From positions 682,684 to 746,683 of the forward strand of contig OY253658.1 in assembly GCA_958009055.1 (NCBI GenBank): a stretch of DNA of 64,000 nt, written 5' to 3'. The notes beneath the pieces are model-generated. The model saw nothing but the letters and a program-made list of their open reading frames with translations, ran no database searches and was not told where the DNA came from. Below are positions 52,335 through 58,270 of this stretch, piece by piece. Numbering within the stretch: position 1 is the stretch's first letter; every line of letters starts with the position of its first letter. Source of the stretch: Choricystis sp. odSpoLacu1. Lineage: Eukaryota > Chlorophyta > Trebouxiophyceae. Position numbers and translations under genes: made by a program.

Positions 52335-53533
52335 ATGCGTGGCGCCGTCAATGCGGCTGGCCCGCGGGCCGTGCGTGCCCCACCGCCGCGGTCGCTGGCG
52401 GCGGCAGCGGCGCAAAGGTGAGAGGGGGTGGCACAGCGTGTCGGCCAGCAGCGCCACGCTGGCAGAGGGATTGAGAGATTCTGGAAAGAGATTCGAGGCG
52501 GGGAATGCGTGTGGGGAGGACGTTGGTCGGTGGAAGCGTAGGGAGAAAGAGGCGGCCGTCAACACCCCCCGCTCACGGCACGCTGGCCCCAACCTCCTCC
52601 CCTCCCGGCTTGGTGTCTCCGTTGCGTGCCCGCATAAAACACACCACACTCACTCACATCTCCTCTCCTCATCACTCCCACCGCAGCCGGCCGCCCCGCG
52701 CCGCCCGCCCTGCACCGCGCACCCTCCACCGCCTCACCGCGTCTGCCGCCTCCACCCCGCCCTCCTCCCTCCCCGACGAGTCCGCCTTTGCTATCGACTA
52801 TGACGCCCTCTCGGACGCAGTGCGCGAGGTGGCGGACAGGCTGGCCGACAAGCTTTCTGGCACCCCAGTCTACCTAGTGGGCATGATGGGCAGCGGCAAG
52901 TCCACCGTCGGCAAGCTCGTGGGCGCCGCCCTGCGCTACCAATTCTTTGACACGGACGCCCTGGTGGAGGCGGCGGCCGGGGCGCCCGTCGCCGAGTTTT
53001 TCGAGGCCGAGGGCGAAGCCTCTTTCCGCGACGCAGAGACGGCTGTCCTCCAAGCCCTCCTCCCCTACAAATCAGTGGTCGTGGCCACGGGGGGCGGCGC
53101 CGTTCTCAAACGCGAAAACTGGGGGCTCATGCACCACGCGGTCGTCGTGTGGCTGGATGGGCCCGCATCGTTGCTTGCTGCACGCGCCGCAGCCGACGGC
53201 GTCGCATCGCGCCCCCTACTCGCAGACGCGGGCGATGCAGGCGCGGCCGCCCGCGTGGAATCCATTCTGGCGGCCCGGCGCGACATGTATGCCCAAGCAG
53301 ACGTGAGGGTGCCGCTGACCGCGACGGTGGAGGGAGGATCGGGCGACGCGGCATCCCCCGCCCTTGTCACGTATCGCCTGTTGACCGCCCTGGACGCCCG
53401 CATCGATGCCGATGCCGCCTCCCGCGAAGAAGAGCGCAGGTTTGAGATACATGGTGTCGGGGATGTATCCACGATGCGGGTGGTGCCCGCGCGGAGTGAG
53501 GGGGAGGGCGATGGGGCTGCGCCGACAGCGTGA
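52335..53533 (+). CDS. SK: Shikimate kinase, plastid-targeted
   Basis: Exons 52335-52417 and 52687-53533 give 309 aa. An Arg/Ala/Pro-rich transit peptide of about 50 residues precedes the kinase. It has Walker A LVGMMGSGKST (residues 93-100 carry GMMGSGKS), QFFDTDALVE, EASFRDAETAVL (shikimate-binding Arg) and VVVATGGGAVLK, with a lid region SRPLLAD. The enzyme phosphorylates shikimate in plastid aromatic amino acid synthesis. The last about 40 residues (EIHGVGDVSTMRVVPARSEG) extend past the usual end. Confidence 0.95.
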
Positions 53534-53728: not shown

Positions 53729-56700
53729 TCACGAGGACGCCACCTCACCCAACCCCAGCAGCTTGACCACGCCCGCGCTGTTGGCGGCCAGCAGCAGTCC
53801 TCCCTCGTGCGCCCAGGCCAGGGCCGACACAAACTTGCCCGCCCTGTCGCGCCGCGCGCGCGACCCCGGGGGCGGCGGCGGCGCGGGGGGGGCGCCCGGG
53901 GGGGAGGACATGACGTGACGGGCGACAGGGGAGGGCAGGCCACCCGCGTACACATACACAGCGTCATCCTCGGACCCGGTGACGACGGCGCCGCCACCAC
54001 AGGAGGCGGGGCCCGGGGCGACCGTCAGGCCGACAAAGTGGCGCTCGTTGGCGTGGCCGCGGTATGTGGCGGCTGGCAGGATGGCGGTGGTCACACCAGC
54101 ACCATTCCCACCACCACCCAGGGCGGCATCCACGTCCCACCTCTGCAGACGGGCATCCGTGGACGCGGTCACCAGGTGGCCACAGGAGGCAGTGGTGGCG
54201 GAGGGTGATGCAGTCGCAGCGGACGCCCACCGCACGTACGACACGGCACGTGCATGCCCCGCCAGCGTGGCCACGGGCCCTCTGCCCAGGCGGCGAGCAT
54301 CGTAGACGTACGCCCGCCCATCTGCCGCGCCCACGGCCAGCAGGTGCGCGGAGCCGGGGGTGGGGCAGGGGGCGACTGACGTGATGTTGGCGCCGACCGC
54401 CACGCACGCGGCGGGCGCGCTCGGCGCCCCCACATCCCACACCCGCACCACGCCGTCGTCCCCGCCCGCAGCAAAGCGGCGGGCGTCGCCGCCCCCCCAC
54501 CAGTCGGCCGACCAGATGCGGCGGTCGGTGGCGTCAAAGGAGGAGGTGGCGGCCGGGGAGGCGGCGGGGGCGTCGACATCCCAAACAGCGACGCGGCCGT
54601 CCGCGCCCGCCACCAGCAGCAGGGGGGCTGCGTACGGATTCCACGCCAGGCAGGACAGTTTGGAGGAGGCGACGACCTCGGCAGCCGGGATGTGGGCGCC
54701 AGGCGCGTTTGCTGCCACAGCCGCTGTGCGAAACACGCGCACCCGCCTCGACACACCCGCCGTCGCGAACAGGGCGTCCGACTTGGAGAACCCCACCGCA
54801 CACGCCATGTCGGGGGAGGAGGCGGTGGCGGGGGCGGCGGCGGAGGGGGCGTCAAAGGTGAGGCGCGCGCGCTCGTGCAGCGTGCCGAGGCGGGCCACCG
54901 CCGCCAGGTCGGCCGCGAACGCGCGCAGGGCGGCGCGGCGGGGGGGGGGGGGTGAGGGCGCCCGCGTCAGGAGGGTTGGGGCGGGGGGCGAGGGCGGGCG
55001 GGGGGGGCGGCGCGTCCAGGCGCGCGAGGGGCGGCACGTCGTCGCAGGACGACGGCAGCGCGCCCAGGCGGGACGACAGGTAGGCAGCTTCCAGGGGCGC
55101 AGCCGCGGGAGCGACACGTGTCCAGGCAGCTGCCGCGACCGCATCGCCCGGTGGAGGCGGCACGGCGGCGGGGGAGCGTGTTGTTGTGACGACCACCGCG
55201 TCTCCTGGGCGCGGCGACGCGGACGCGGAACGGTCGACCGCGACGCGGCGCCGCTTGGTGGCAGCTGCGGCGGCGGCAGCGCCACCGCCATCTGTGTCGC
55301 TGGCAGACGCGTCGCCCAGGCGGTCCCGGCCACCACGGCGGTCGCTCTCGCTGTCGGCCAGGAGGTCGTCCAGCGCGGCGTCGACTTCGGCCGCGTCAGC
55401 GTCTAGAGCCGCCAGGGCGGCCGCTTCAGCCACCGCCTCCGCCGCGCGGGCGGCGCGCACCATGCCCAGGAACTGGATCAACAGGCCTGCATCCCTGGAT
55501 GACCGGGGTGGGGGGGCGGGGCGGGCGCAGGCGGGCCCCGCACGCGTGGTGGGGGGGGAGGCGGGGGTGGCGTCAGCCGCGGTGGTGTCGGCAGGGCCCG
55601 CATCACCCGCCGCCACAGCCGCATCACCGCCGCCACCCTTGGTCAGCCGCGCAGCAGCCGCCCGCGCGCCATCCCGCAGCGCGGGCAGCCAGCCCGACGT
55701 CAGCACGTCGGCCAGGGACGGGCGGGCAGCCGGGTCGGGGTGCACCAACGCCGTCACAAAGGCCGCCTCCCGCGGCCGCGACGCCAGCAGGTCGGGCGGC
55801 AGGATGCGGTGGCGCAGGGCGGCCAGGATGGCGGCACGTGATGCCGCGTTGGCGGGAGGGGGGGCCGTCAACTCGAGGAGGAGAACACCTAAAGCATAGA
55901 CGTCGGCGGGGGGGCCGACAGAGCCGCCAAGCAGTTGCTCAGGGGCGGCGTAGCCTGCCTCCTCCTCGGCAGGGATGCCACCGGGAGGAGAGACAGCGGC
56001 CAGCGCGCCACCCGCCCCCAACGCCAGCGCAGACGGGCGCAGCGTGCGCAGGGGGGCGCCCGCCGCGTGGAGCGGGCGCAGCAGCGCGAGCGCCGAACAA
56101 AACAGCTTGAACGCGGCAGTCGGGTCGGGCGGGCTGGTGGCAGACCTGGAGGCCAGGTAGGATGCCACCGTCACCGCGCCGGGAGCAGGTGTGGGAGCGG
56201 CCGGGCCGGCGGGCGGGGTGGGGGCAGCGGGCTGGGGCGGGGCGGCCTGCGCAGTCGTCGGCACAGTGGGCACGCCGCCACCCCCACCCCCCGCGGCCGC
56301 CGTCTGCCGCCGCCACGCGTGCTGCCAGATGTGTTGCACGTCTTTGCGGGCCACTGGTTTGAGCAGGTAATCCTCGGCACCTGCCCGGATGCACTCAAAC
56401 ACGGTGTCCGCGTGTTCGTTGGCGCTCATCATGACGACTGGTACAGCCGCCAAGGACGCGTCGGCGCGAATGTGGCGCAACAGGTCGATGCCGTCGACGT
56501 CGGGCATCATGACGTCCTGTGGGTAGGGAGGGAGGGGAAGGTGAGTGGTTATTGTTTCGAAAGCCGGTCGATCGATCAACACTCCCTCTTTTCTCATCAA
56601 CTCACCGTCAACACCAGCGAGTATGTGCCCCGCGACGCTGTGCGCAGCTTGTCGATGGCTTGCAAGCCGGACTCACACTCGGTGACTGGTGGAGGGAGAG

Positions 56701-56996
56701 GTGGGAGGGTGAGCTGGAAAGTACAAGCAACCGCGCCTCACGGCCGCCCGCGTCGCACCACGCGTGCGCGAGCTGCGAGAGGCGCGGGCGACGAAGGAAA
56801 AACGAAACTGCAGCGCCGCGGCTCCCTCCCTGTCCCCCTCCGCCTCTCTCTCCCCCAACATACCTCTGTACTGAAACTTCTTCAGCTGCGACGCCACCAC
56901 CATGCGCGGCACGCGGTCGTCGTCGACGAGCAGCACGTGCACGTCCGACGGCGACAGGCCGGGCGCGGCCGCCGTGGCGGCGGCCGCGGTGGCCAT
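53729..56996 (-). CDS. PRR-type receiver fused to SPA kinase-like domain and COP1/SPA WD40 propeller
   Basis: Exons 56996-56864, 56685-56606 and 56516-53729 join with correct phases. About 999 aa follow if one surplus base in the 13-G run 54940-54952 is ignored. Residues 20-141 are a response-regulator receiver: LLVDDD (25-27), phosphoacceptor D72 in LVLTDVMMPDVDG, VVMMSANEH, and KP at 124-125. It ends HIWQHAWRR, the pattern of plant clock PRR receivers, but with the Asp retained. Residues 190-348 match the SPA kinase-like C-lobe (LAALRHRILPPDLLASRPRE, ALVHPDPAARPSLADVL) without HRD or DFG. A short helical linker (LLIQFLGMVRAAR) and a basic KRRRVAV follow. The C-terminal seven-blade propeller is SPA/COP1 type: GVSRRVRVFR, KLSCLAWNPY, RRIWSADWW, DARRLGRGP, SYVRWAS and YRGHANERHFVGL. 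It likely acts with COP1/CUL4-DDB1 in light signalling. Confidence 0.85.
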
Positions 56997-57296: not shown

Positions 57297-58175
57297 TCAC
57301 CCACCCTCCTCCCCCTGCGGCAGCACCGCCCTCCGCCTCTCCTGCCACTCTGTGCCCGGCCGCGGCAGGTCATACGTCTCCGTGACACGGGCGTAGGTGT
57401 CGCCCCCCAGGCGCGACACGGCAGCTAACTTGTCAAACAGCACGACGGGGCCACCCGCGCCACTGGTGGTGGTGACGCCATCGAGGACGTGCACAGCAAC
57501 AACGCGGCCAATCAAAATGGTGGCGGTGACGACGCCGTCCCGGGTGACGGGGTGGGAGGCGGCCAGGACACACTCCAGTTGGACTGCACTCTCTGCAACG
57601 CGCGGCGGGGTGACTGCCACCGACGCTTCCGCCGTCAACCCCGCCAACTCCAGTTCATTCACGCCTCGATCATAGAAGCCGCACGTGTGATTGGCGGCTT
57701 CCAGCATCCACTCGGAGACGGTGTTGACCACAAACTCGCGCGTTTCCAGAATGTTTTGTTGGGTGTCTTTCTGCCTATTCGCCCGTCCGCTCGTGCTACA
57801 CGTCCCAATGACGACGTGGGGCGGGTCGTGGCACGCCAGCCCAAAGTAGGAGAAGGGGGCCAGGTTGGAGGAGCCGTCGGAGCCGCGCGACGACACGAGC
57901 GCGATGGGGCGCGGGACGACGGCTGAGATCATGAGAGGGTAGAGGATGGAGGACGGCGTGGTGTCAGTCAGGATGGTCGTCCGTTCTGGGCCGCAGGGTG
58001 GGGGGCAGGGCGTGCCGGGCGCCCAGGCTGGGTTGGGGGAGGCGGTCGTGACGACGCGAGCGGCGCGCGGGGCGATGGAAGGGGGGGACGCGTCGTCACC
58101 GCCCTGGCGCTTGCCACGCCGCTGCAGCAGCAGCGCGGCGGCAGCGCCGGCGGCGGCTGCTAGCAGGAGGGACAT
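57297..58175 (-). CDS. Flavin-reductase-like FMN-binding protein
   Basis: This is an intronless gene of 292 aa. The N-terminus ([22 protein letters not shown]) is a membrane anchor or signal peptide followed by basic residues. The body is the flavin reductase-like split barrel: VVPRPIALVSSRGSDGSSNLAPFSYF, PPHVVIGTCS, KDTQQNILETREFVVNTVSE and LIGRVVAVHVLDG. These are the FMN-binding features of the family. It likely binds FMN and reduces or transfers electrons to a flavin or an unknown substrate. Partner and substrate are unknown. It is head-to-head with the next gene, 95 bp between starts. Confidence 0.8.
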   Translation of the reverse strand: MSLLLAAAAGAAAALLLQRRGKRQGGDDASPPSIAPRAARVVTTASPNPAWAPGTPCPPPCGPERTTILTDTTPSSILYPLMISAVVPRPIALVSSRGSDGSSNLAPFSYFGLACHDPPHVVIGTCSTSGRANRQKDTQQNILETREFVVNTVSEWMLEAANHTCGFYDRGVNELELAGLTAEASVAVTPPRVAESAVQLECVLAASHPVTRDGVVTATILIGRVVAVHVLDGVTTTSGAGGPVVLFDKLAAVSRLGGDTYARVTETYDLPRPGTEWQERRRAVLPQGEEGG

Positions 58176-58270
58176 AGCGGGGGCCAAACGGGAAAAAAAA
58201 AGAAGAAAAAACAGCAAGCGATGTGTGACACATCCAACGCGTCGTTTTTCGTTTCGGGGCACCCGCAACT

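Follow-up and report, generated by a model that had tools for sequence, protein, structure and literature searches.

The window analysed here, a stretch of 64,000 nucleotides from the green alga Choricystis sp. odSpoLacu1, carries on its minus strand a predicted three-exon gene that joins a two-component receiver domain to a protein of the SPA type. Exon 1 (56864–56996, −) holds the start ATG and the acidic pocket D25–D27 of the receiver, and is separated by a GT–AG intron of 178 bases (56686–56863, −) from exon 2 (56606–56685, −), which is followed by a second GT–AG intron of 89 bases (56517–56605, −) and by the long exon 3 (53729–56516, −) with its TGA stop at 53729–53731. Both introns fall inside the receiver (residues 21–132; 56334–56936, −; Pfam PF00072 Response_reg, E 5.9e-26), and the codon of the phosphoacceptor D72 (56514–56516, −) opens exon 3. 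Further along exon 3 lie the K124 codon (56358–56360, −), the motif HIWQHAWRR that forms the last receiver helix (56307–56333, −), a kinase C-lobe of the SPA type (residues 259–348; 55686–55955, −; Pfam PF00069, 25.2 bits, under the 31.7-bit cut-off and starting at profile position 162 of 263), a probable coiled-coil region (LLIQFLGMVRAARAAE...; 55350–55493, −; assigned by resemblance to the family consensus and with approximate boundaries), and a WD40 propeller of the COP1/SPA type (53750–54814, −). The site residues of the receiver are D25, D26, D27, D72, S102, and K124, and those that an initial sequence-only reading of this DNA had named (D25–D27, D72, and K124) were all located at the positions it gave in the spliced translation. 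The gene is flanked by a shikimate kinase gene (52475–53533, +) and by a gene for a flavin-reductase-like protein (57300–58178, −), neither of which showed a connection to the receiver-SPA protein.

A single frame of exon 3 leads from Asp72 through Lys124, HIWQHAWRR, the C-lobe, and the coil region and holds up to approximately residue 602. The propeller lies in a different frame from the receiver and the C-lobe, with the switch at a run of 13 C (G on the plus strand; 54940–54952, −). What had been claimed, i.e., that three spliced exons encode one protein, was right in coordinates, strand, domain order, and key residues, but the gene as assembled has no single open frame. An intron at the frame switch was ruled out: a scan of the letters found no AG dinucleotide in 55088–54914 around the run, so that no GT–AG intron can bridge it. 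Relatives have similar sequence on both sides of the run (LEAAYLSSR... before it, FAADLAAVARLGTL... after it), and in one of them, P0029, one frame spans both sides, with a weak match before the run (E 0.003) and a match of 5e-80 after it. From the sequence, a run-length error of the assembly is the likeliest cause of the frame break, with a genuine lesion of the gene as the other possible cause. That two adjoining genes, or a broken gene, have been misread as one is very improbable in spite of the frame switch, because the second half of the receiver, the C-lobe, and the coil region share one exon frame, receiver and propeller occur in one predicted protein in 68 other cases, P0029 spans the junction in one frame, and the next upstream gene stops some 300 bases short of the ATG. 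As far as can be judged from sequence, the receiver-SPA fusion is real. The window as a whole contains 29 C or G runs of at least nine bases (9–21 bases), the 13-base run included, and runs of this kind are likely to give rise to frame errors in the genome assembly.

SPA identity and distribution among green algae

COP1 and SPA form a central light-signalling ligase of plants. The Choricystis protein is best read as an SPA with a true receiver, and as the only SPA-type protein found in the genome. With Arabidopsis SPA1–4 and Chlamydomonas SPA1 it shares the kinase-like C-lobe, a probable coil region, the COP1-type propeller, and the lack of a RING; it differs in the additional receiver with an intact phosphosite and in that only the C-lobe of the kinase domain was recognised, the N-terminal part being unmatched by Pfam. 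To our knowledge, the SPA proteins of land plants have no receiver. The C-lobe contains LRHRILPP...HPDPAARP, which we take to be a motif of land-plant SPAs, and scores 139 bits against an SPA C-lobe profile that was itself built with this row; the relative P0003 aligns at 49% across residues 14–379, which include the C-lobe. Among solved structures, COP1 is the closest to the propeller (best PDB match, E 5.5e-41); however, COP1 has a RING, whereas none was detected in the Choricystis protein by the Pfam scan. The genome has its own COP1-type propeller on contig C2 (43% identity) with a RING directly upstream on the same strand, and the two presumably form one COP1 gene. The earlier assignment to SPA rather than COP1 is thus borne out both by the lack of a RING in the protein and by the separate RING-flanked propeller elsewhere in the genome.

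An unrooted propeller tree was calculated from 30 of 77 rows (69 receiver-bearing proteins, seven without a receiver, and the COP1 of Choricystis itself); in it, one branch separates all 26 SPA rows from the four RING-COP1 rows (91/81, not starred). A further split in this tree sets 23 SPA rows apart from the COP1 rows together with the Choricystis protein, P0001, and P0029 (92/89); these last three form a long branch with a letter composition flagged as unusual. The alignment used for structure prediction (A1) comprised 49 of the 68 relatives.

The first homology search gave 51 matches among 8000 scored candidates and the search with the receiver 589 matches, the best 120 of which were listed. 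Receiver and COP1/SPA propeller (>100 bits) were found together in 69 proteins, i.e., in the Choricystis protein and 68 others; 43 of the 69 have in addition an SPA C-lobe match at E<1e-3, and 26 have none at that threshold. Those with a named source represent 17 chlorophyte genera: Coccomyxa, Myrmecia, Elliptochloris, Trebouxia, Micractinium, Chlamydomonas (eustigma), Tetradesmus, Gonium, Pleodorina, Botryococcus (from a JGI code), Parachlorella, Dunaliella, Nannochloris, Astrephomene, Volvox (africanus), Cymbomonas, and Chlorella (variabilis). Seven proteins have a COP1/SPA propeller and no receiver: three RING proteins (COP1), P0032, and three apparent fragments. Since the queries contained the receiver, algal SPAs without it are under-sampled, and the set does not gauge their share. 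The gene model of P0032 (Volvox reticuliferus) begins within the final helix of a receiver (MHVMKRYHH), the rest of which was probably lost by annotation. Those receiver-SPA proteins that bear a name in the databases are mostly called hypothetical or “Response regulatory domain-containing”; P0081 (Cymbomonas) is named after an antizyme “Spa1”, probably by mistaken transfer from an unrelated Spa1.

Outside the chlorophytes, P0035, which from its JGI code we read as Mesostigma viride, combines a receiver (113 bits) with an SPA C-lobe (108 bits) about 700 residues further on, in a gene model that stops before the propeller; NCBI taxonomy places Mesostigma in the Streptophyta. A search with the Mesostigma receiver gave 24 matches and no further streptophyte receiver-SPA, a weak negative because this search depends on shared exact words. 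Given its presence across many green algae, and possibly also in an early land-plant relative, the receiver-SPA looks old and widespread.

The sequence-only reading was aware of no description of the arrangement, and had named in advance its common occurrence in algal databases as a point against that view. This is largely what was found: many receiver-SPA proteins are already deposited, and “REC-WD40” proteins are in print for the Mamiellales (PMC12704426). According to the parts of that paper available to us, REC-WD40 is encoded in all Mamiellales genomes analysed, in three genera it is co-expressed with CRY-DASH, and WD40 is stated to be a previously unreported effector of plant response regulators (PMC12704426). 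These proteins resemble the one described here in uniting receiver and WD40 in one protein, and some rows from metagenomes, P0065 and P0070 among them, in turn resemble them; the paper differs in covering one order, and its available text has no occurrence of COP1 or ubiquitin (PMC12704426). Among the CC-licensed PMC literature searched, mostly titles and the starts of abstracts, no paper was found in which a receiver is linked to SPA or COP1, or in which the protein is identified as SPA. What is probably new is the SPA identity of the receiver-WD40 protein, its breadth, and the strict conservation of its phosphosite; the receiver-SPA is common among green algae, and its role is nearly unstudied.

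In Chlamydomonas, SPA1 and COP1 bind CONSTANS, and the spa1 mutant over-accumulates CONSTANS and photoprotective proteins; neither “response regulator” nor “receiver” occurs in the available text of that study (PMC6736836). Relatives of C. reinhardtii, namely Volvox africanus, Gonium, Pleodorina, Astrephomene, and C. eustigma, have a receiver-SPA, and the cloned SPA1 coding region of C. reinhardtii itself, given as about 4.17 kb in the same text (PMC6736836), is near the 1405 residues of the receiver-bearing P0073 of Volvox africanus. Microalgae have been reported to have one SPA homolog each, in a paper whose available text does not contain the word “receiver” (PMC5749748). SPA is not universal in green algae, as the prasinophyte Pycnococcus is reported, in the available text, to be without it (PMC8209157).

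The phosphosite and the relay parts of the genome

In the 70-row receiver alignment (the 69 proteins and Mesostigma), the column of the phosphoacceptor contains D in 68 of the 68 filled rows, the K124 column K in 70/70, and the S102 column S in 70/70, while the HIWQHAWRR columns have W in 69/70 and H in 70/70. All five site columns are filled in 62 rows, Mesostigma among them, and 61 of these are canonical, the exception being P0087 with E for D25. Receiver proteins with a CCT-like motif (PRR-type) have E at the phospho-Asp in 30 of 31 cases and D in one algal protein, P0144; these 31 rows were chosen by a pattern that passed over further proteins, P0106 and P0119 at least, each of which reads LTE at the site. 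The assertion that the phosphoacceptor is intact here, unlike in PRRs, agrees with these counts, and wherever the position is readable, the receiver-SPA family keeps a phosphosite chemistry that most of the PRRs checked have lost. Such conservation strengthens the case for a phosphorelay onto SPA, which is possible though unproven; it does not reveal which kinase, if any, acts on the SPA receiver.

Plant pseudo-receivers work as docking or dimer modules, and the receiver of SPA could be a fixed module of the same kind, as in the PRRs of land plants, that stays unphosphorylated in the cell. This would be in keeping with the loss of the Asp from two other Choricystis receivers, a PRR-CCT protein and a CheY-like protein. 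But receivers without the chemistry show its loss, such as the E in nearly all PRR-type proteins checked, whereas the D, K, and S columns of the receiver-SPA proteins are invariant, and we consider a fixed docking module unlikely, though worth keeping in mind.

Profile searches of the Choricystis genome, which scored exons and top candidates only and therefore give lower bounds, yielded parts of a possible relay onto SPA. There is one HPt match with HQLKGASASFGA, and there are two HisKA matches, each followed by a receiver on its own strand. One of these hybrid histidine kinases (L032 3602–4600, −; contig C13) has a PAS domain with GKNCRFLQG, which we take to be LOV-like, ahead of its receiver, and is a candidate for blue-light input; no sensor domain was identified for the second (contig C11). 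The profile search of the genome gave no match to a PHY domain, and the cryptochrome/photolyase FAD domain gave four matches at three places. Six receiver matches were obtained, four of which keep the Asp, namely those of both hybrid kinases, of a type-B-like regulator, and of the receiver-SPA; on these lower-bound counts, SPA and the type-B-like regulator would be the two non-hybrid receivers that could accept phosphate from the single HPt. The type-B-like regulator is presumed to be such from a GARP stretch recognised by eye, Pfam giving only a sub-threshold receiver.

Two further receivers of the genome are degenerate. The PRR-CCT protein (L026 2369–4177; contig C6, at about 519.4–521.2 kb) has E for the phospho-Asp and G for the Lys, and the CheY-like single-receiver protein (L028 1239–1832, −; contig C8; Pfam 75 bits) has G in place of the phospho-Asp. 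Unlike the Choricystis PRR-CCT, the TOC1 of O. tauri and algal PRRs are said to retain the phosphosite in the available parts of two papers (PMC12704426, PMC5508029), one of which states that algal PRRs keep the DDK motif and that PRRs of higher plants lose it (PMC5508029).

Given the hybrid kinase, the HPt match, and the RING-COP1 of the genome, a relay onto SPA is possible, yet unproven. In the mechanism that we propose, the propeller and coil would join SPA to the RING protein COP1 and to CUL4–DDB1, and the receiver would act as the control port of SPA. A histidine kinase, with the PAS/LOV-like hybrid as the obvious candidate, would send phosphate by way of the single HPt to Asp72; once phosphorylated, the receiver would alter the hold of SPA on COP1 or on substrates, and the ligase would be active in one light state and not in the other. 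We give about an even chance to this reading of one SPA-type protein, in which a receiver, the remnant of a kinase C-lobe, a probable coil, and a propeller are combined and the receiver is phosphorylated by a relay to gate the COP1 ligase.

Phosphorylation of the receiver might instead serve an input other than light (redox, nutrient, or CO2), through a relay unrelated to photoreceptors. Only one HPt and two HisKA matches, the lack of an identified sensor domain on the C11 kinase, and the lack of a PHY domain among the profile matches would fit such an input; against it stands the PAS domain with its LOV-like motif on one of the two kinases. The co-expression of REC-WD40 with CRY-DASH in three genera of Mamiellales, as reported in the available text (PMC12704426), likewise speaks for light, and a relay for a non-light input seems to us quite unlikely.

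Origin of the receiver and ancestry of the receiver-SPA

The closest solved receiver is that of the type-B regulator ARR1 (E 6e-23), whose helix ends NIWQHVVRK, and the type-B-like regulator of Choricystis carries NLWQHVVRR; because an element like HIWQHAWRR is also present in ARR1, the motif is not specific to PRRs. With PRR/TOC1 proteins the receiver-SPA shares a receiver that ends in a WQH helix, and it differs from them in that it keeps the phospho-Asp and has no CCT domain by Pfam, the six CCT matches of the genome being all on other contigs. The likeness to type-B ARR1 comprises the closest solved receiver, the IWQH element, and an intact site, while the output of the receiver-SPA is a COP1/SPA propeller. 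Pfam found no DNA-binding domain in the receiver-SPA protein, which is a weak test for GARP as it also showed none in the type-B-like gene of the same genome.

A receiver tree of 60 rows (67 rows minus L003 and six other long-branch rows, among them the PRR and CheY-like receivers of Choricystis) places the SPA receivers and the PRR plus type-B receivers on opposite sides (95/87). It includes 37 of the 70 receiver rows, 13 having been left out as incomplete or intron-split and 20 by hand, mostly as near-copies, and the type-B row of Choricystis entered it without one exon. Trees constrained to group the SPA receivers with land-plant PRRs (p-AU 0.316) or with type-B receivers (p-AU 0.272) were not rejected. 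The description of the receiver as clock-type found no support, as ARR1 has the same IWQH element and SPA receivers and PRRs stay separate in the tree, though a joint grouping is not rejected; nor was a link between the receiver-SPA and the clock found in the parts of the literature consulted. That the receiver is a recent acquisition from a PRR clock gene is highly improbable: its helix resembles that of PRRs and the p-AU for a grouping with land-plant PRRs allows it, but the motif is common to ARR1, the receivers of the family group across the chlorophytes and Mesostigma (92/87, not starred), and a clade of Mesostigma and land-plant PRRs is rejected (p-AU 0.0107).

Within the SPA receivers, Mesostigma forms a long branch (1.57) inside the chlorophyte rows beside P0058 (100/94) and is not their sister. 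The tree in which the other SPA rows are held together without Mesostigma is 12.2 log-likelihood units worse and is not rejected (p-AU 0.116). If the Mesostigma gene model is right and descent was vertical, the receiver-SPA arose before chlorophytes and streptophytes separated. SPA may then, in the ancestor shared by the green plants, have been a two-component response regulator that gated the COP1 ligase through a histidine kinase, an HPt, and its Asp; the phosphosite would have stayed unchanged in the chlorophytes, and the receiver would have been dropped in the land-plant line, where light input came by direct binding of photoreceptors. We put this forward tentatively and lean somewhat against it, since Mesostigma falls inside the chlorophyte rows.

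The interest of the receiver-SPA lies in the strict conservation of its phosphosite, in a possible ancestry below the land plants, and in the availability of a model alga for testing it. Direct tests are within reach, as Chlamydomonas spa1 mutants have a clear photoprotection phenotype, according to the available text (PMC6736836), and relatives of this alga have the receiver on their SPA. The SPA identity could also give the REC-WD40 proteins of marine picoalgae a partner pathway. If the SPA of algae is the target of a phosphorelay, regulated protein destruction would receive input straight from two-component signalling, and a different picture of how the plant light pathway arose would follow, with a receiver input older than the inputs known from land plants.
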